Of a stretch of 47,759 nt of DNA, positions 5,155-25,127 are shown one piece after another. The notes under the pieces are model-generated. The model was not told the origin of the DNA. It worked only from the letters and a program-made list of their open reading frames with translations, and made no database searches. The position numbers were made by a program, and so were the translations under genes. Every line of letters begins with the position of its first letter. Position 1 is the first letter of the stretch. The stretch is from Plectonema radiosum NIES-515. GTDB taxonomy: Bacteria; Cyanobacteriota; Cyanobacteriia; Cyanobacteriales; Nostocaceae. The stretch spans positions 1 to 47,759 of the forward strand of contig NZ_JAOWRF010000334.1 in assembly GCF_025753815.1 (NCBI RefSeq). Reading direction: 5' to 3'.

Positions 5155-6516
5155 ATGACCGCAAATATGTTACAGAAAAATCAGGTAAATAAGGATTTTA
5201 TTAAGTCTAACTCTAAACAGATAAGTCTGCAAACTGCACAAGAGAAAACTTATAAGTTTTTAGTAGAAATTGTGCAAAAATGGTCACCAGAAGACGTGAT
5301 CAAAGAATTTAAGCTTTTATTTATAGACTGTCTTGATTCAGTTGATTTAAATTCTGCACCAAGTATATATGCAATGTTTTCTGAGAATAACGAACAAGAG
5401 TTTCGCCATACACTTAAGCGATGTTGCTACATTATAGTTAATAACTGGGATTCTCAGAGAAAATATAAATATATCAAAGAATTAGTGGAATTATTTGTTA
5501 ATTACCAAATCAAGATATGGGCTGCTAAATCTTGTTCAACTAAGATAAATATTTTCCAAAGATGGTTAATAAATTTTGTTAATAGTAACGATTATGAAGA
5601 ATTAAAGTTGTTCGCTCTTAAACACAAAGAAGAAAACAAAACTCATTGGACTAATCGCTATACAACATATTTATTAGTTGCTCAATCTTTTGATAAAAAT
5701 AATCCAAAAGAGCAACAAGAAGCGGCTTTAAAGCTCTCCAAGCAGATGAAAGACAAATTTAAGTTTGAACTAGCAATGTATCTTGCTCGTTCTCAGTGTG
5801 CTAACTCAAGCGAAACACGTTACAGAAATCCCACTATTTTGGAAAATAATGTTTTGCATTTAATCAAGACAATTGTTTTAAAAAAAGGTGCATTCAGTCA
5901 TGAAAATATTGCAAATATATTTCTCAAACAGACTCAAAATCAAACTTTAAAAGAGTTTAAAGATAGCTTACAAAAATATCTGATTTTTTCTGTAGAACGT
6001 CAAGATTTTGTAGAAACGTTGAAACAGCAGTTGTCAGATAAACTATCGCTTTGGAAAAAAGAATATGATGAAGAAACTATCAGCAAAGAATTGTTATTGA
6101 GAACCTGTAATCGAGTGATTGATTGTTTAACAACAGAAAAGGGACGAGAACCTTCACAATTATTCGTTTTATTACTTTCTCAGGGTCATACATTCACATT
6201 GGTGATTGTACTGCTAAAAGTAATTTTGATTTGCAAAAATGCCCGCAGTCATTTAGAAATTAGGATGGCTGATTTGATTGGTTATTACGACAAATATCCA
6301 GAAGAAGAATGCCAATGGGTTATTAATTTTATAGAAATTTTTAATATCACTTTTGCAATTTATGCAGAAAACGTTGAGTATAACTTGATTAATATGAAAC
6401 AAGATGAGCAAACATCTCAGCCAATGGTAAACTTAGATGCTTATCGTGTGTTTTCTCAGTTAAAAGTAGATGCACAATCAGGGGACAAGGGGACTACGCG
6501 ATCGCATTCTCCATAA
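5155..6516 (+). CDS. Hypothetical protein, AT-rich orphan gene (453 aa)
   Basis: I do not recognise this protein. ATG at 5155 is preferred over a TTG six codons upstream; another ATG follows at 5167. The protein looks almost wholly alpha-helical, rich in Lys, Glu, Asn, Ile and Leu, with no signal peptide and no clear transmembrane segment. Around residues 335-355 a hydrophobic stretch (LFVLLLSQGHTFTLVIVLL) could be a buried helix. The composition is much more AT-rich than its neighbours. The last dozen codons run through a HIP1-containing repeat (SGDKGTTRSHSP), suggesting that the stop was captured from repeat DNA. It is the first complete gene after the CAST-like end, so it could be former transposon cargo. 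That is inference. Confidence 0.6.
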   Translation: MTANMLQKNQVNKDFIKSNSKQISLQTAQEKTYKFLVEIVQKWSPEDVIKEFKLLFIDCLDSVDLNSAPSIYAMFSENNEQEFRHTLKRCCYIIVNNWDSQRKYKYIKELVELFVNYQIKIWAAKSCSTKINIFQRWLINFVNSNDYEELKLFALKHKEENKTHWTNRYTTYLLVAQSFDKNNPKEQQEAALKLSKQMKDKFKFELAMYLARSQCANSSETRYRNPTILENNVLHLIKTIVLKKGAFSHENIANIFLKQTQNQTLKEFKDSLQKYLIFSVERQDFVETLKQQLSDKLSLWKKEYDEETISKELLLRTCNRVIDCLTTEKGREPSQLFVLLLSQGHTFTLVIVLLKVILICKNARSHLEIRMADLIGYYDKYPEEECQWVINFIEIFNITFAIYAENVEYNLINMKQDEQTSQPMVNLDAYRVFSQLKVDAQSGDKGTTRSHSP

Positions 6517-6782
6517 CCCGATGATTTAATGCGATCGCTTATTTATAAGCTGTGAGACTTTTTATTTTATCGTTGAGGCACTAGAGGGAGAAGGGGAGAT
6601 AGTTTTAAGCTGACTCTCCTTTGGTTGCTTTTAAGAAGCTGCTCTTGTTAGGTCTGTATTTCATGCAATTGAGAACCGCTACAAGTGGTCATATTCAATA
6701 TTATTTGAAAATTTTTCTCTTGTACACAAATGTTCTGCATGGGTACGAGAATATAAGCTTACTTTCCTAGGCTTCGCTTGTA

Positions 6783-6806
6783 TAGCCCTATCCTTCTAGA
6801 ATAGGC
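6783..6806 (-). terminator. Weak hairpin downstream of mutL
   Basis: An imperfect inverted repeat (CCTATTCTAGAAGGATAGG on the minus strand) lies just past the mutL stop without a clear T-run. The rest of 6517-6810 shows nothing else convincing. Confidence 0.25.
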
Positions 6807-6810
6807 AAAA

Positions 6811-8562
6811 TCAAATTCCATGACTCTTGCCAATCACCCAATTACGACGGAAAAACCGCGCTAAGGCTGATTCTGACAAAGATAGATAAATCGGGCGCCC
6901 GTGGGGACAGGTGCGTGGGTTGCGGGTGCGTTGCCAATCATCTAAAAGTGTCTGCATTTCTGGTAAAGTTAGGGGTGTACCGTTGCGAATTGCACTGCGA
7001 CAAGCTACGGCTACTTGCGCTGTTTGTAAATCACCACCCCAACTAAGTTCTAAAATAGCTTCTGCACAATCGTCTCTTTGCTGTAAAAGTGCAGGTATGT
7101 TACGAACTGCCCAAAGTTGTTCGCCAAAAGGTTCTATATCTATATTGATGCGTTGTAGTTGGGAAACTTGCGCCGGCGACAATTGATATAAAATAATCGC
7201 AGGTTCCACGGTAACAAGTTGCCAATTATCGTATAATTGCTCATATAAAACTCGCTCATGAGCAATATGTTGTTCTACTAACCACATACCACCGGCATGT
7301 TCGACAACTATATAAGTGTTGTTAACTTGAGCGACAGCTTTTAAAGAGTTAGGAGTCGGGTAGAGACGACCCGGTGGGTCGTCTCTACGGGAGTTAGGAG
7401 TTTTGTTTTCGTCAGAATTAGGACGTTGAACATGATAACCTCCTTTTTCTTCTGCGGCTTTGATTAATTTACTAACTCGGGTTGTGTGAATTGCTTCTTT
7501 GATATTGACAGAATCGATGCGAAGTGCTTGCTGAATTGCGCTGGATATTTGTTCTTGCCAATAGCTTAATTCATTGAGGTAAATTTCCGTTTTTGCGGGA
7601 TTGCGGTTCCAGTTAATTTGATCGGGGGAAATATCAAGATGTAAAAAACAGATGGGATAGCGATCGCGTGGTAATGTTCTGTGAAATCCTGTAAAAATCG
7701 TTTGCTCTAATTCTTTTGATTTTACCATGCGTCCGTTGATCGCTACTCGCACCCAATCTGGACGATGACGATGACAGCGATCGGGCAATCCTATCACTAA
7801 TGAGAGTGAGGAGTTAGGAGTGGGGTAGAGACGACCTGGTGGGTCGTCTTTACAAGAGTTAGGAGGGTTGGGTACTTCTAATTTTAGTTCTTGTAAATCG
7901 CCTTGTTTAACTTGATGTAAAATTTGCGGCAACAGTTTTCCCGTTGTGGCAGCCGGTGAAAGAGTGAACCATTCACGGTCATTTTGCCAAACTTGCCAGG
8001 TAACATGAGGATGACATAAGGCAATTTGATGAATCGAGGCTTGTACCGCTTTCATTTGAATAGCTGTGGTTGGCAAACCTTGACGCCGAGTTGAGTAATT
8101 TCCGAATAAATTGGATATTGTGACAATTGTACCAGGTGCGATCGCTGCTGCTTCCACTACCACAGGTTCCCCACCATAGCCATACACAACCCTGAATCCA
8201 CCACTTGCAGAATTTGCCGGACGACTTAAAATTTCTAAATCTGCCAAAGTCGTCAAACTGTGTAACGCTTCACCCCGAAATCCTAAACTGTTAATTTGCC
8301 ACAAATCTGCACAAGAGCGAATTTTACTGGTACTGTGTGCCGATGCTGCTTGTTGCAAGTCATCCAAATTCATTCCACAACCATTATCTGCTACTCGCAC
8401 CCGCCACTGCTGTGCCCATACAGAAATTATAATCCGTGTTGCACCTGCATCTAGGGAATTTTCTATCAATTCCCGCACCACTGAAGCTAGAGAGTCAATA
8501 ACCTCTCCGGCTGTAATGAGGTATACTACCTCCGTTGGTAAAGCTTGAATTGTAGAAGACAT
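6811..8562 (-). CDS. mutL: DNA mismatch repair protein MutL (endonuclease-type), with two repeat-derived insertions
   Basis: MutL couples MutS mismatch recognition to strand incision. The start ATG at 8562 (MSSTIQALP) fits the family; the frame extends 35 codons upstream without homology. The N-terminal GHKL ATPase shows ELIENSLDAGA, DNGCGM and GFRGEAL. The C-terminal half carries the endonuclease set: EQHIAHERVLYE, ACRSAIRNG, CPHGRP and FFRR at the end, as expected where MutH is absent. At 583 aa it is somewhat long. The excess matches two in-frame copies of a peptide containing DDPPGRLYPTPNS at about residues 233-251 (ATPase/transducer domain) and 388-406 (interdomain linker). Both are encoded by palindromic repeats. 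It follows the lipoxygenase by 132 bp on the same strand. Activity is probably kept, since all motifs are intact. Confidence 0.95.
   Translation of the reverse strand: MSSTIQALPTEVVYLITAGEVIDSLASVVRELIENSLDAGATRIIISVWAQQWRVRVADNGCGMNLDDLQQAASAHSTSKIRSCADLWQINSLGFRGEALHSLTTLADLEILSRPANSASGGFRVVYGYGGEPVVVEAAAIAPGTIVTISNLFGNYSTRRQGLPTTAIQMKAVQASIHQIALCHPHVTWQVWQNDREWFTLSPAATTGKLLPQILHQVKQGDLQELKLEVPNPPNSCKDDPPGRLYPTPNSSLSLVIGLPDRCHRHRPDWVRVAINGRMVKSKELEQTIFTGFHRTLPRDRYPICFLHLDISPDQINWNRNPAKTEIYLNELSYWQEQISSAIQQALRIDSVNIKEAIHTTRVSKLIKAAEEKGGYHVQRPNSDENKTPNSRRDDPPGRLYPTPNSLKAVAQVNNTYIVVEHAGGMWLVEQHIAHERVLYEQLYDNWQLVTVEPAIILYQLSPAQVSQLQRINIDIEPFGEQLWAVRNIPALLQQRDDCAEAILELSWGGDLQTAQVAVACRSAIRNGTPLTLPEMQTLLDDWQRTRNPRTCPHGRPIYLSLSESALARFFRRNWVIGKSHGI
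7346..7401. repeat. In-frame palindromic repeat in mutL, linker copy
   Basis: The palindrome GTAGAGACGACCC / GGGTCGTCTCTAC (7360-7388) is bracketed by direct repeats GAGTTAGGAGT at 7346-7356 and 7391-7401. It is translated without a stop as part of MutL. It matches the second copy at 7811-7866 almost base for base. Confidence 0.9.
7811..7866. repeat. In-frame palindromic repeat in mutL, ATPase/transducer copy
   Basis: Same module as at 7346-7401: GTAGAGACGACCT / GGGTCGTCTTTAC (7825-7853) between GAGTTAGGAG direct repeats. It is read in the same frame and gives the same peptide, within the transducer domain before the conserved VRVAINGRMVKS strand. Confidence 0.9.
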
Positions 8563-8694
8563 AAATTTCAGTATAGGCGAGTTGCCAAGCACTGAATAGA
8601 ATAAAAAAATTTCTAGCGGGTTTATTCTTTGGCTATGTCGGGAAATACCCATTTCCCGACTATCCATCCCACATATACAACTACTCTGTATCTA

Positions 8695-10854
8695 TTAAAT
8701 ATTGATGCTTTGAGGAATATTCGTAGGGAGCAAAAATTTGTAAGGTATTATCCTATCACCCTTACTATTACTATTTCTCTGGTTAATCTGTTGCTCAATG
8801 TCTTTTAGGTTTGTCTGGAATTTCTCCAAAGCCGATATTACATTTGGATCTGTAAAAGCTGATGCGGAATAATTGCCTAAATTGGTGTAATAGATAGAGC
8901 CAAGTAAATAAACTAAATTTATCTGATTTAGTGCTTGCTCTAGCGGTGGTAGACCATTTATGAAATTCTCTGGCTGCTGGGTATCTATAGGTACAGGTAA
9001 ATAACGGGCTAAAGGAAATGCTGGTGTATACATCATCAGTTCCTTTTGCGGAAAATTAACAGCAGCGTGTTGAGCGCTAGCCGTAAAAATAATCGTCGAG
9101 ACAGCTTTCACTAGATAATCTAGCGTTTTAATATGCCCTTGTCCATCGTCACCAAAATTTTTTAAGCGACCTCCTTCATGGGAAATCAATGTAGATGCCC
9201 AAGTCTGTAAATCTGGATCGTTAAGAACTGATGAATCACTGCTGTAGTAGAGACTAAAATATTCCTGAACCCAACTTTCAATAGCACCCCAAATCAATAA
9301 CCCGTCATCTCTATAGGGGTAAGTAGGTAGTTTGCTCGCATCGTCAACACCCCGACTTGTTAAAGTATCAGGAAAGGCAATATCATTAAAGTTAAATAGG
9401 TAGCTTTGCGCTCCATGAGCACCTAGAGTTTGGTCACTGCCAATACTGCTAGCTAGCAGCTCATCTACACCACCCCCTGGGGCGATTAAGGTTGTATGGG
9501 CGCCATAATTAATCAGTATAGTACCCTCAAGATGAGGTTTCAGCAGGTTTCTTAGATTGTGGTTGTCAGGCAATTGATTAGTTGCCACAACAAAAGGCTC
9601 AACCACTAAGTGAGTACGACCTAAGTGACTGACTAACTCGTGATAGTTGCTATCTGCCATTTGTACAATATTCTTGGCAGTCATCCACGTATCTGCGTCA
9701 GTATCAGTAACTAAGGGTGTAAATAAAATCCAATTATTACTAATTGAAGTCTGCTGATAACTAATTGCTACTGGGAATAAAGAGCGAACTCTATAGCTAC
9801 TTGGTGGTACTGCAAATAGCGCTAAAGGAGCAGAAATATACTTTTGTTTTTGAGGGAAAGTGCCATTTACTAAGCTATCTAACAGAGTATAGTCGGCTAA
9901 ATAAATTCGACCCTCAGCTAGTGCGTTATTTAGAGTATCTGAAACTCCATAGAAGTTAGCAACATCAGAGTATTTATCTTCAGTAATTGGTAAACGCAAA
10001 TCTAGTTGTGCTAGCTGCTGTAGCATAACTGGGTTGGAACCAGCCACCTGCATATAAGCAAAATATTTATCTTGTTGAAAGTGATAAGAAATATCCGGCT
10101 TGGCTATAACTTGAAATTGTTTGTTGTAATTTTCAAGGCTAGGAGAATTAGAAGCCGACTTGGAACTGGGGGTTTGATACTTAGCTAGTTCTGCTAACTT
10201 AGCCGTGGATTTAATTATTTCCTTAAGATTTTGGATTTGAGGCTTTTCACTTAATTCTTCTAAATTCAGGGTAACCCTTTCTGGATTTTCAATTAATAAA
10301 TGAGCTATCTGTTTGTCAATTTCTTCAAATTCCTCATCAATTGAAGGGTGAGTAATGCTTTCTGGTTGTTTAGCAAGTCTAGCAAGCGCAAGTTGCTCAT
10401 CAACTTTCTCTTCTTGGTTAATTTCTTCTAAACTTGATTTCAACTTCAAAAGAATAATGCTTAATTCTTCTTGAATTTCTGGCTTGTTTATTTTGTTACC
10501 AATTGCATCTAAGGAAACGCCAATTATTGATTTCAAGAAATCTGGTTGGGTAATTAAAGATTGGTTTAACTGAATAACAATTAATCGGATTACTACTGCA
10601 ATAACCCATTTGAGGTTGGGAAGTTCTTCTTTAGGAAGAAGAGGTATAGTAATACGTCCAATCGGGTATTGAGGTACATTTGTTATGGCTAAAGGATTTA
10701 GATAATCGTGGTTGTATTTATATGTAAAACCTTTGAATGCGGCTTCACGTAATTTTATAAGTGAGTATAACAGTTTAAGCAAATCTACTGTATCTAAGAT
10801 TGTATTTTTCTGATATGAGGTAGATGAAGAATCTTCAGTGTTAATCTGTGACAT
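8695..10854 (-). CDS. Lipoxygenase family protein (719 aa)
   Basis: Lipoxygenases insert dioxygen into polyunsaturated fatty acids to give hydroperoxides, using a non-haem iron. The iron ligands are all visible: HELVSH (His about 403 and 408) within SNYHELVSHLGRTHLVVEP, then SAQHAAVNF (His about 594 and the following Asn), and a C-terminal Ile (ends SINI). A second supporting motif is LPDNHNLRNLLKPHLEGT. The catalytic domain fills roughly residues 245-719. The first 240 residues are a charged helical region, not a recognisable PLAT domain, with no signal peptide. ATG 10854 is the only sensible start. It could be co-transcribed with mutL downstream, though the functions are unrelated. Oxylipin product and regiospecificity cannot be read from the sequence. 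Confidence 0.93.
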   Translation of the reverse strand: MSQINTEDSSSTSYQKNTILDTVDLLKLLYSLIKLREAAFKGFTYKYNHDYLNPLAITNVPQYPIGRITIPLLPKEELPNLKWVIAVVIRLIVIQLNQSLITQPDFLKSIIGVSLDAIGNKINKPEIQEELSIILLKLKSSLEEINQEEKVDEQLALARLAKQPESITHPSIDEEFEEIDKQIAHLLIENPERVTLNLEELSEKPQIQNLKEIIKSTAKLAELAKYQTPSSKSASNSPSLENYNKQFQVIAKPDISYHFQQDKYFAYMQVAGSNPVMLQQLAQLDLRLPITEDKYSDVANFYGVSDTLNNALAEGRIYLADYTLLDSLVNGTFPQKQKYISAPLALFAVPPSSYRVRSLFPVAISYQQTSISNNWILFTPLVTDTDADTWMTAKNIVQMADSNYHELVSHLGRTHLVVEPFVVATNQLPDNHNLRNLLKPHLEGTILINYGAHTTLIAPGGGVDELLASSIGSDQTLGAHGAQSYLFNFNDIAFPDTLTSRGVDDASKLPTYPYRDDGLLIWGAIESWVQEYFSLYYSSDSSVLNDPDLQTWASTLISHEGGRLKNFGDDGQGHIKTLDYLVKAVSTIIFTASAQHAAVNFPQKELMMYTPAFPLARYLPVPIDTQQPENFINGLPPLEQALNQINLVYLLGSIYYTNLGNYSASAFTDPNVISALEKFQTNLKDIEQQINQRNSNSKGDRIIPYKFLLPTNIPQSINI

Positions 10855-22520: not shown

Positions 22521-25127
22521 TTAATTCCGAAAATTCCGCAAACGTAAGGCATTAGTCACTACAAAGACAGAACTAAATGCCATTGCACCCCCAGCAATCA
22601 TTGGGTTGAGTAACCATCCAAAGATTGGATAGAAAACCCCAGCAGCGATAGGAATACCCGCGACGTTGTAGATAAAAGCAAAGAAAAGATTTTGCCGGAT
22701 ATTGCGGATGGTAGCACGACTAAGTTTAATCGCCGTGACAATGCCTTGTAAATCTCCCGAAATTAAAGTAATGTCACTGGCAGCGATCGCTATATCTGTT
22801 CCCGTCCCAATCGCAAACCCCACATCAGCTTGTGCTAGCGCTGGTGCATCATTGATACCATCACCCACCATCGCAACAAGAGAGTGGGGAAGCGTGGTGT
22901 GGGGGAAGCGTGGTGTGGGGGAAGCGTGGTGTGGGGGCAATACGGTTCGGTTAAGAATATTTGTGAACCCAAAACCCTTGTAGAGACGTTGCACTTGGTA
23001 GTCTCTACATACGTTAACCGAACCGTATTGGGAAGCGTGGTGTGGGGGAAGCGTGGTGTGGGGGAGTGGGGGAAATATATTCTTCCTAGTCTCCTTGTCT
23101 CCAAGGAGTCCCCTTGTCCCCCCATCTCCCCATCCCCCCCTCTCCCCATCCCCCCCTCTCCCCCTCTCTCCTTGCAACGACTTAATCACCGCTACTTTTT
23201 CATCGGGTCGGACTTCGGCAAAGATGTTAGTGATATTAACTTGAGAAGCGATCGCTTGTGCGGTTTGTCGATTATCTCCGGTAAGCATCACCACTTCTAA
23301 ACCCATCTTTTGTAGTGCTTTCACCGCATCTTGTGATGAAGGTTTTAAGGCATCAGCAATGCCCATCAACCCCTCTATTTTGCCATCAACAGCAATCAAG
23401 ACCACTGTTTTACCAGCGGCTTCCCAGACGGGTTTAAAATAATCTAACCTCTCCCCCACACCCTCTCCTACAACAAGAGGGGAGTCATTCTCCCCCTTCC
23501 CTCCCAGGGAAGGGGGTAGGGGGGTTAGGTTCTCTTCCAACCAGCGCTGTGTACCGATTTGTACTAGCTGATTTCCCACAAAGCCTTGGACACCGCTACC
23601 GGCGATCGCTTGAAAATTCTGGGCTTCGGGGAAATTAACTTGTTGCGATCGCGCATAATTTACAATAGCTTCACCCAAAGGATGTTCAGAATTACGTTCC
23701 ACCGCTGCGACTAACTGCAAAAGCTTCATTTCATTGTTATTCGCAGTCCCATTAACAGTTACAAAGTCGGTAACAGTCGGTTTTCCTTGAGTCAAAGTCC
23801 CGGTTTTATCCAGCACAATCGTTTTAATTTTGTGTGCCATTTCTAAGCTGGTTGCATCCTTAATTAAGATGCCATTTTCTGCACCTTTACCAGTTCCCAC
23901 CATCACAGAAGTTGGTGTAGCTAAACCTAAAGCACAAGGACAAGCGATAATCAACACACCAACGGTGGTAATTAAAGATAAACTCAGATTTCGTGTGACA
24001 CTAAACCAAATAATAAAAGTAACAACAGCAATAATAATTACTGCCGGCACAAACCATTCAGTTACCCGATCTGCTAATCTTTGAATTGGTGGGTTGCTTC
24101 CTTGCGCTTGTTGAACTAGTTGAACAATTTGCGCCAAAAACGTATCTTTACCAATTCTTGTAGCCCGAAATTTAAAGCTACCTGTTTTATTAATCGTCGC
24201 TCCAATTACCTCATCACCTGGGACTTTTTTATTCGGTAAACTTTCACCAGTCACCATCGATTCGTCAACTGTAGAATTGCCTTCAATAACTTCCCCATCA
24301 ACCGGAACTTTTTCGCCTGGACGCACTAAAATGACATCATCAATTATTACTTCTTGAATGGGAATATCAATTTCTTTGCCATTGCGAATTACTCTCGCAT
24401 CTCTAGCTTGCAAGCCGATAAGTTGGCGAATTGCCTCGGAAGTTTGTCCCCTAGCGCGACTTTCTAACAACTTTCCTAAAGATATTAAGGTAATAACTAC
24501 TGCTGCTGTTTCATAGTAGACTTCTGGCATCAAGCCTTGATTGACGAAAAAGGCAGGAAAAATAGTAGCAAACAACGAATAGAAATAAGCTGCACTTGTA
24601 CCCAGAACAATTAGCGTGTCCATCGTTGCAGAACGATTTCTTAAAGCTTTCCAGCTATTTATATAGAACTTATAACCGCACCAAAATTGTACAGGTGTAG
24701 TTAAAATTAATTGCAACCAAGGATTATGCAACCATGCAGGAATGAAAGGTAAATGTAAGCCAATCATCATTGGCAACGAACCAATTACCAGTAAAATACT
24801 AATTACTGCTGCAACTGCTAGTTTAATTTTCAAGTTGCGTAATTCTGCAAGACGAACGGCTTTTTCGGCATCATCTTCCCCAGTCATTATGCCTTCATCT
24901 TCTAGAGAATAAGCCGAGTATCCTGCTGCCTCTACAGCTGATTGAATTTGCTTTAAGTTAGTTTTGCGGGGATTATATTTAACTAGGGCTTGTTCTGCAC
25001 CAAAGTTGACGCTACATTCACTTACACCTGTAACGGAAAGAATCGTTTTTTCGATTCTTTTAGCGCAAGAAGCACAACTCATGCCTCTAAGTTTGAGTGT
25101 GAGGGTATCCATATTCAACTTTTTCAT
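22521..25127 (-). CDS. copA: Copper-translocating P1B-type ATPase with repeat-encoded insertions
   Basis: CopA exports Cu(I), or feeds copper to thylakoid targets, using ATP. The 868-aa protein has an N-terminal metal-binding domain (GMSCASC), eight expected transmembrane helices, TGES, the CPC motif [13 protein letters not shown] (about 397), DKTGTLT (about 439), HPLGEAI in the nucleotide-binding domain, TGDN and GDGINDAP. It is over 100 aa longer than usual. The excess is two insertions: about 532-561 ([13 protein letters not shown]), between the N domain and TGDN; and about 651-748, directly before GDGINDAP, from tandem repeats plus a 93-bp element. Both keep the frame. Whether the P domain tolerates the second insertion is uncertain. 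It is divergent from a MerR gene, with a MerR-type promoter at 25248-25278. Confidence 0.93.
22884..23066. repeat. 16-bp tandem repeats interrupted by a palindromic element, inside copA
   Basis: GAAGCGTGGTGTGGGG repeats with a 16-bp period, three copies before and two after a 93-bp inverted-repeat element (22938-23030). The same 16-bp unit, inverted, occurs three times at 43708-43757. Three copies (48 bp) and the 93-bp element are multiples of three. Confidence 0.9.
22938..23030. mobile_element. 93-bp inverted-repeat element nested in the copA tandem repeats
   Basis: Perfect 17-bp ends CAATACGGTTCGGTTAA / TTAACCGAACCGTATTG enclose CCCAAAACCCTT and a palindrome GTAGAGACG ... AGTCTCTAC (22980-23008). 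The CCCAAAACCCTTGTAGAGACG core also occurs, inverted, in the element at 36414-36504, although the outer ends differ. It adds 31 codons to copA. Confidence 0.85.
23446..23532. repeat. C/G-rich repeat in copA encoding [13 protein letters not shown]
   Basis: Runs such as AACCTCTCCCCCACACCC and CCCTTCCCTCCCAGGGAAGG form inverted repeats. The same repeat type lies at 40921-41006 in the CHAT gene in the equivalent frame, and related non-coding sequence lies at about 41930-41997. Confidence 0.85.

Follow-up and report, generated by a model that had tools for sequence, protein, structure and literature searches.

In-frame palindromic repeats set in 7-mer DNA at two sites of mutL in Plectonema radiosum NIES-515 and other Nostocales

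Small dispersed repeats (SDRs) of 21–27 nt, often embedded in tandem 7-mers (STRRs) or in small transposons, were reportedly described from Nostoc by Elhai et al. in 2008. The available part of a later paper by Elhai mentions precise insertion of SDR5 in HIP1 (PMC4390886), and heptamer repeats are described, in the portion of another paper at hand, as enriched in Nostoc, mostly intergenic and under-represented on the coding strand of open reading frames (ORFs) (PMC4692102). According to the accessible text of a third source, GTAG/CGTC REPs are palindromes 20–40 bp long and present in many copies, some of them being intragenic and many of these lying in DNA repair genes; the same text describes the palindromic elements of Rickettsia, which are found in frame in genes likely encoding functional proteins (PMC3733652). 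Additionally, coding perfect inverted repeats of up to 284 bp are known from mitochondrial genes of Nematomorpha, as far as the accessible sections of that report go (PMC6649704).

Here, we describe two in-frame palindromic repeat cassettes in mutL of the cyanobacterium Plectonema radiosum NIES-515 and their counterparts in other Nostocales. They are like the Nostoc SDRs and STRRs as very short repeats of filamentous cyanobacteria, the 7-mer embedding being seen at the mutL cassettes and at a minority of the other copies, and differ, on a comparison with the reported description and not with the SDR1–8 sequences, in being mostly 28–30 nt long and in lying twice in frame in a conserved gene. 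With the palindromic elements of Rickettsia, to which they are likened by description, they share the character of a many-copy palindromic repeat in frame in a gene whose function is probable from conservation; the difference is that the present repeats are compound with 7-mer DNA and recur, in various members of an order, at one and the same pair of sites in a single gene. The heptamers of Nostoc and Xanthomonas, in contrast, are GGGNATC-type quadruplex repeats, for which the text at hand mentions no mutL site (PMC4692102). The palindromes of Nematomorpha are likewise inverted repeats inside protein-coding genes, whereas the accessible sections make no mention of a dispersed, shared-arm family (PMC6649704), and the mutL switch of Salmonella, as available in part (PMC2955026), likewise involves repeat DNA in mutL, with a unit of 6 bp and a reported effect as against the 7-mers and palindromes considered here. 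The kind of element is known, and its compound, recurrent mutL form was not found in print; such mutL inserts were sought in the literature with partial coverage, by title among the matches listed, and the 20 of 323 papers listed for the sequence itself have titles unrelated to cyanobacteria. The words mutL and mismatch repair are absent from the main text, as available, of the REP paper (PMC3733652), and the available part of a paper on cyanobacterial repair genes makes no mention of mutL inserts (PMC5101192).

The window, as we call the whole stretch of 47,759 nt that was analysed, is one contig (C88) of the 6.59-Mb genome of this strain (G000), an assembly of 421 contigs. Its mutL gene (Table 1) is identified by NCBIfam model NF000951 (911.6 bits, cut-off 391), with the frame open throughout. 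Column 1 of the mutL alignment is an invariant M, corresponding to M36 of the ORF (window position 8562), and the EQHIAHERxLxE columns are invariant as well (33 sequences in each case); from this conservation, the protein is probably functional. The 618-aa minus-strand ORF remains open through both cassettes, which are read in one frame as RRDDPPGRLYPTPNS and CKDDPPGRLYPTPNS, DDPPGRLYPTPNS being encoded twice. Together the cassettes form a direct repeat of 60 nt (7346–7405 and 7811–7870; 88% identical). The inverted repeat of site B (7360–7372/7376–7388) has fully complementary arms and the palindrome of site A is imperfect (GTAAAG...CTCTAC). The window holds seven copies of GAGTTAGGAG, compared with 0.03 expected in shuffles, and four of the seven bracket the two mutL palindromes. 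Folded as RNA, the 29-nt palindromes reach −22.9 kcal/mol at site B (z −6.1) and −13.9 kcal/mol at site A (z −4.4), with 0 of 200 shuffles as good in either case. A known RNA family at the cassettes was considered and rejected: positions 6500–8800 gave one sub-threshold match (E 0.61), outside the cassettes. Direct repeat, inverted repeat and open ORF thus bear out the original prediction of palindromic repeats lying in frame in mutL and encoding the same peptide twice; the plan of bracket, palindrome and bracket also stands, with the module corrected from about 56 bp to 55 nt and with only the palindrome of site B perfect.

Table 1. Positions in the window of mutL, its two repeat cassettes and a second repeat-bearing gene
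Feature	Position	Strand	Remarks
mutL	6811..8562	(-)	conserved start = M36 of 618-aa ORF, to stop codon
Site B cassette	7346..7400	(-)	bracket + 29-nt palindrome + bracket; in linker just before MutL_C
Site B palindrome	7360..7388	(.)	13-nt perfect arms; core ACCCACCGGGT in coding sense
Site B bracket GAGTTAGGAG	7346..7355	(+)	7-mer type
Site B bracket GAGTTAGGAG	7391..7400	(+)	7-mer type
Site A cassette	7811..7865	(-)	plan as site B; near start of transducer domain; chimera of older site-A palindrome and site-B cassette
Site A palindrome	7825..7853	(.)	imperfect; core ACCCACCAGGT in coding sense
Site A bracket GAGTTAGGAG	7811..7820	(+)	7-mer type
Site A bracket GAGTTAGGAG	7856..7865	(+)	7-mer type
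Heavy-metal P-type ATPase gene	22524..25127	(-)	in-frame repeat-filled stretch (about aa 654–750, ~95 aa)
Family palindrome in P-type ATPase stretch	22980..23008	(.)	within larger inverted-repeat element ~22938–23030 (own arithmetic)

The two sites were placed by the original prediction in the transducer domain and the linker. The palindrome of site A begins after ORF residue 271, just ahead of the DNA_mis_repair stretch (287–382) and near the start of what we take to be the transducer domain, at a point that aligns with a short turn of E. coli MutL (LAIEWQ-h-GDLTLRGW, chain 1bkn); that of site B begins after residue 426, just ahead of the MutL_C stretch (445–566) and hence at the end of the linker. 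The E. coli alignment and the Pfam borders suggest that both sites are loops, which the AlphaFold model, with a mean pLDDT of 48 (33 of the 110 loci in the alignment), does not confirm.

Alleles without these inserts are present in the genus, which as grouped here includes Hassallia byssoidea VB512170 (G003; its mutL is identical to that of locus L057). At site B, a palindrome is missing from all four other members (G001–G004), G003 having 7-mer DNA there; at site A, it is missing from G001, G003 and G004. The site-A palindrome of G002 has the same left flank, an altered arm (GTAAAG), a different core and an extra partial copy. Other genera have site-A palindromes with CGATTAATCG-type cores in the corresponding position, which suggests that the older palindrome of site A may have arisen before the genus did. 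The mutL tree pairs G004 with G000 as sisters (support 0.867), yet G004 lacks a site-A palindrome, which requires a loss or a parallel gain. Target duplications are not separable from the 7-mer brackets, as 7-mer DNA also occurs without a palindrome (site B of G003). Alleles without the inserts, together with a dispersed family of 503 copies, support the view that these are insertions of dispersed repeat DNA. The alternative named beforehand, that both insertions are shared order-wide as ordinary conserved sequence, is rejected, given the uninterrupted alleles of the genus; the two insertions together occur in no relative examined.

The dispersed family has the form GTAGAGACG–core–CGTCTCTAC, with constant arms, a variable core and a length of mostly 28–30 nt (range given, 27–30 nt). 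The 503 perfect-arm copies (core 4–14 nt) of the P. radiosum genome, against 0 for the reversed control, are the maximum among the 71 of 99 genomes, this one included, in which the pattern is present; the reversed control matches in one genome (G010). The commonest core is CGAAATTTCG in our sample of this genome, TAAAATTTTA among the listed copies of G081 and CGCCATGGCG among those of G099, and about half of the sampled cores (72/147) are self-complementary with at most two mismatched positions. The sample comprises 32 stretches, 663 kb of the 6.59 Mb (the window itself, 11 picked for listed palindromes, six from contigs C399 and C421, and the remainder from contigs with Y1 matches), and is non-random, so that densities may be too high. 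Although ORFs of at least 150 aa cover 74.3% of it, only seven of the 147 palindromes lie inside such ORFs, that is, at least 20 aa from either end on a mechanical ORF list. Of the seven, mutL has two, the genes for a P-type ATPase, an M1 peptidase and a glycosyltransferase have one apiece, and two ORFs with weak Y1_Tnp matches account for the rest. These last two ORFs (L185 on contig C366 and L193 on C410), perhaps decayed transposase genes, carry their family palindromes in frame.

A GTTAGGA-type 7-mer lies within 30 nt of 20 of the 147 sampled palindromes, compared with 762 of 20,000 random positions; most copies are therefore not set in such 7-mers, and a palindrome embedded in 7-mers is seen at the mutL cassettes and at 23 places in the genome. 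On contig C22 (8908–9525), one palindrome with core TTCCACACCGAA is repeated six times at spacings alternating between 86 and 165 nt. Cross-genome pairing of 45 palindromes taken as outside mutL (one is actually the G002 mutL site) gave few clean pairs among those listed; one intergenic palindrome is common to L068 (15734), L105 (16293) and L083, and its core differs among them in ways that preserve much of the pairing. Arms of this family, joined to other cores, are present in at least 120 stretches of a viral collection (80 looked at, L259–L338), and the arms match plasmids of Tenacibaculum and Aureibacter weakly (E 0.02–0.06; H13, H14 and H16); the arm family may cross phyla.

In size (20–40 bp), in its many copies and in being mostly intergenic, this family is like the GTAG-REPs. 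Its members could be GTAG-REPs or REPINs moved by a RAYT or another Y1 (IS200-like) transposase acting on single-stranded hairpins, with two independent insertions in mutL, an account that we consider unlikely. The palindromes do start with GTAG, the genome has 18 Y1_Tnp matches, and the two ORFs with weak matches and in-frame palindromes score 26.4 and 22.8 bits (cut-off 23); moreover, the accessible text of one paper describes GTAG-12, -15 and -16 in filamentous cyanobacteria and REPs inside repair genes, in some cases two to a gene (PMC3733652), and that of another describes REPINs in Nostoc punctiforme (PMC3116915). However, 0 of the 18 Y1 loci, a set in which RAYTs are not separated from other Y1 genes and several loci are cut by contig ends, is flanked by family palindromes on both sides, and three of the 18 loci (~3 kb each) have one palindrome, where about four would be expected from the genome density by our own estimate. 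The GTAG at one end is mirrored by CTAC at the other, with which it pairs in both mutL folds, so that the one-sided tag of GTAG-REPs is lacking, and the present repeats differ further in their 7-mer brackets, GTAG-12, -15 and -16 being compared by description only and not by sequence. A rare core shared by the two mutL sites and the chimeric make-up of site A also argue against two independent insertions.

That core, GACGACCCACCGGGTCGTC, has three matches within two mismatches in the P. radiosum genome, one at each mutL site and a third in contig C85, where the flanks are different and no 7-mers are seen in the 500 nt around it; a second place in C85 matches at three mismatches. Within two mismatches, it is absent from the other four members of the genus, one of which has a genome that is 54% complete. 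The left 22 nt of site A differ from site A of G002 by one mismatch and from site B by four, and the right 34 nt differ from site B by two mismatches and from site A of G002 by 29. On these short stretches, site A is a chimera, with a left part like site A of G002 and a right part like site B; as the core and right half match site B, the original prediction of two separate insertions is not upheld. Scytonema NIES-4073 (L111) has nearly the same core at both sites, but that core is frequent in the copies listed for its genome, and the case was set aside as giving no support for copying.

Across the Nostocales, 110 mutL loci yielded 101 distinct alleles once nine identical ones had been dropped, genomes with a mutL match in pieces being outside this set; for eight of the latter (G009, G020, G054, G059, G067, G080, G091 and G095), our own arithmetic puts the pieces in a single frame on a single contig. 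The 101 alleles vary in length mainly at site A, by up to 63 aa, and at site B, by up to 22 aa; a lesser third site, near residue 118, varies by up to 12 aa. Inverted repeats scoring at least 8 are present in 24 of the 101 alleles at site A and in 20 at site B (shuffles, 0.2 and 0.5). Identified by arm sequence, with up to three arm mismatches, family palindromes are present in 22 and 19, respectively, and at both sites in eight; these counts omit non-family sequence, namely an inverted repeat in L021 (site B) and GAATTC runs in L068 and L105 (site A). The alleles are related by descent, so these counts are not independent events; Fitch parsimony gives 18 changes at site A and 13 at site B on a mutL tree with weak nodes. 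In alleles without a family palindrome, the offset from the base length corresponds to whole sets of three 7-mers (multiples of 21 nt) in 31 of 57 at site A and 18 of 49 at site B, compared with 8.1 and 7.0 (1 in 7) if all multiples of 3 were equal and kinship is ignored. As side observations, the sister alleles L105 and L068 both have 222 nt at site A, made of different 7-mers (CCCCAGT runs versus CTCCTAA and CTCCCCA types), which looks like replacement or homogenisation of the array in situ; in G011, mutL is divided between contigs C143 and C380 exactly at site A, where repeats would be expected to interrupt an assembly; and G014 and G017 have no mutL match though 99% complete, mutS being present in both.

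We also surveyed 80 named loci (the best 80 of 160 confirmed). Allowing two arm mismatches, they contain 55 palindromes: 31 in mutL (21 loci, 137.5 kb), one in other ORFs of at least 150 aa and 23 outside. Period-7 arrays (at least three perfect copies) number 34 in mutL (26/80 loci), 12 in other ORFs (968.5 kb), where eight start within the first 37 residues, and 102 outside (416.1 kb); arrays of period 5, 6, 8, 9 or 10 number 0 in mutL of the 80 loci. The scarcity in other ORFs relative to mutL depends on the mechanical ORF list. No internal stop or off-frame allele was found among the 101 mutL alleles at the species level, the loci having been chosen by long protein matches. Given 101 of 101 open frames and the scarcity of palindromes in other large ORFs, we read the frame as the outcome of selection on a frame-blind process; the original prediction had left the choice between frame-compatible landing and a selective filter, and these data favour the filter and speak against frame-sensing.

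The density of 7-mer arrays per kilobase, about 20-fold higher in mutL than in other ORFs, and the long CCCCAGT array inside mutL of L105 would also fit an adaptive switch, in which arrays are kept because 7-nt slippage toggles MutL as a reversible mutator, with palindromes as by-products or stabilisers; indeed, a 6-bp repeat of Salmonella mutL is reported as such a switch in the accessible part of PMC2955026. We hold this to be improbable: 0 of 101 alleles is off-frame, albeit among loci chosen by long protein matches, the brackets in the window are probably too short for frequent slippage, and a P-type ATPase gene shows the same pattern, so that a function specific to mutL is unneeded.

This ATPase, also encoded in the window, contains a stretch (22878–23168) of 7-mer-like DNA and a larger inverted-repeat element containing a family palindrome. 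The stretch is much shorter or missing in seven aligned relatives, four of these outside the genus; among genus members, the end of the stretch carries 7-mers alone in G003 and a palindrome inside 7-mers in G001, and G002 has neither. MutS of Nostocales has one hypervariable in-frame site, which varies by up to 50 aa and in certain species contains 7-mers; H. byssoidea has a run of CCCCACT 7-mers there (L382) and P. radiosum other repeat-like DNA (L379). In mutS, there are 0 family palindromes in 47 genes and three arrays in three of the 47; in uvrA, which also has length-variable sites, there are 0 palindromes and 0 arrays in 30; and in a comparison set of 30 mutL genes, there are nine palindromes in six and three arrays in three, the genome sets being different and those for mutS and uvrA including more distant genomes. 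From the ATPase and mutS patterns, and their absence in uvrA, mutL is not the sole gene of this sort, nor do variable sites alone place a gene in this class. It is very doubtful that the MutL loops and the one MutS site are evolved contingency sites of Nostocales, at which 7-mer slippage would make transient mutators and hairpin cassettes exchanged between sites would reset the arrays.

Elhai is said to have put forward in 2008 the idea that small dispersed repeats are inserted via RNA. Strong hairpins, embedding in 7-mer DNA and pairing that is kept despite core changes at one shared intergenic site would all suit such a route. One hairpin arm can be copied from the other during replication, which keeps the core paired, and paired cores would thus also arise in this way; we give the RNA route little credence. 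An assembly artefact or chance similarity is scarcely credible: repeats do break assemblies, and this one is in 421 contigs, but both sites lie within one 47.8-kb contig, separately assembled genomes have palindromes at the same two sites, and shuffles have almost none.

The reading that we prefer, with a probability of about 0.64, is that repeat DNA accumulates in permissive loops of MutL, that selection keeps the in-frame events and that cassettes are copied between sites. The modules would be copies of a compound intergenic repeat, a palindrome of 27–30 nt with GTAGAGACG and CGTCTCTAC arms and an often self-complementary core, set in 7-mer DNA. Two loops of Nostocales MutL would tolerate extra residues, allowing 7-mer DNA and palindromes to build up, and selection would remove inserts causing a frameshift or introducing a stop codon, as the scarcity in other ORFs and the 101 of 101 open frames suggest. 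In P. radiosum itself, site B has a palindrome with the rare core within 7-mer DNA, and from this palindrome the core and right half would have been copied into the older one of site A, with the break in the shared arm. Copying would most likely have been by template switching or gene conversion, the microhomology being offered by the shared arm GACG and the 7-mer brackets. We infer the direction, from B to A, and the replicative or recombinational mechanism of the copying from the same comparisons, and the inserts are presumably neutral for MutL.

The findings suggest repeated entry of intergenic repeat DNA into those parts of a conserved gene that tolerate it. About 100 mutL alleles constitute a natural record of how intergenic repeats enter conserved coding sequence, where they are tolerated and how they recombine inside it. 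MutL itself restrains recombination between diverged repeats, so that repeat traffic inside mutL opens to direct testing the long-standing question of whether repeats can alter the mutation rate of their host.
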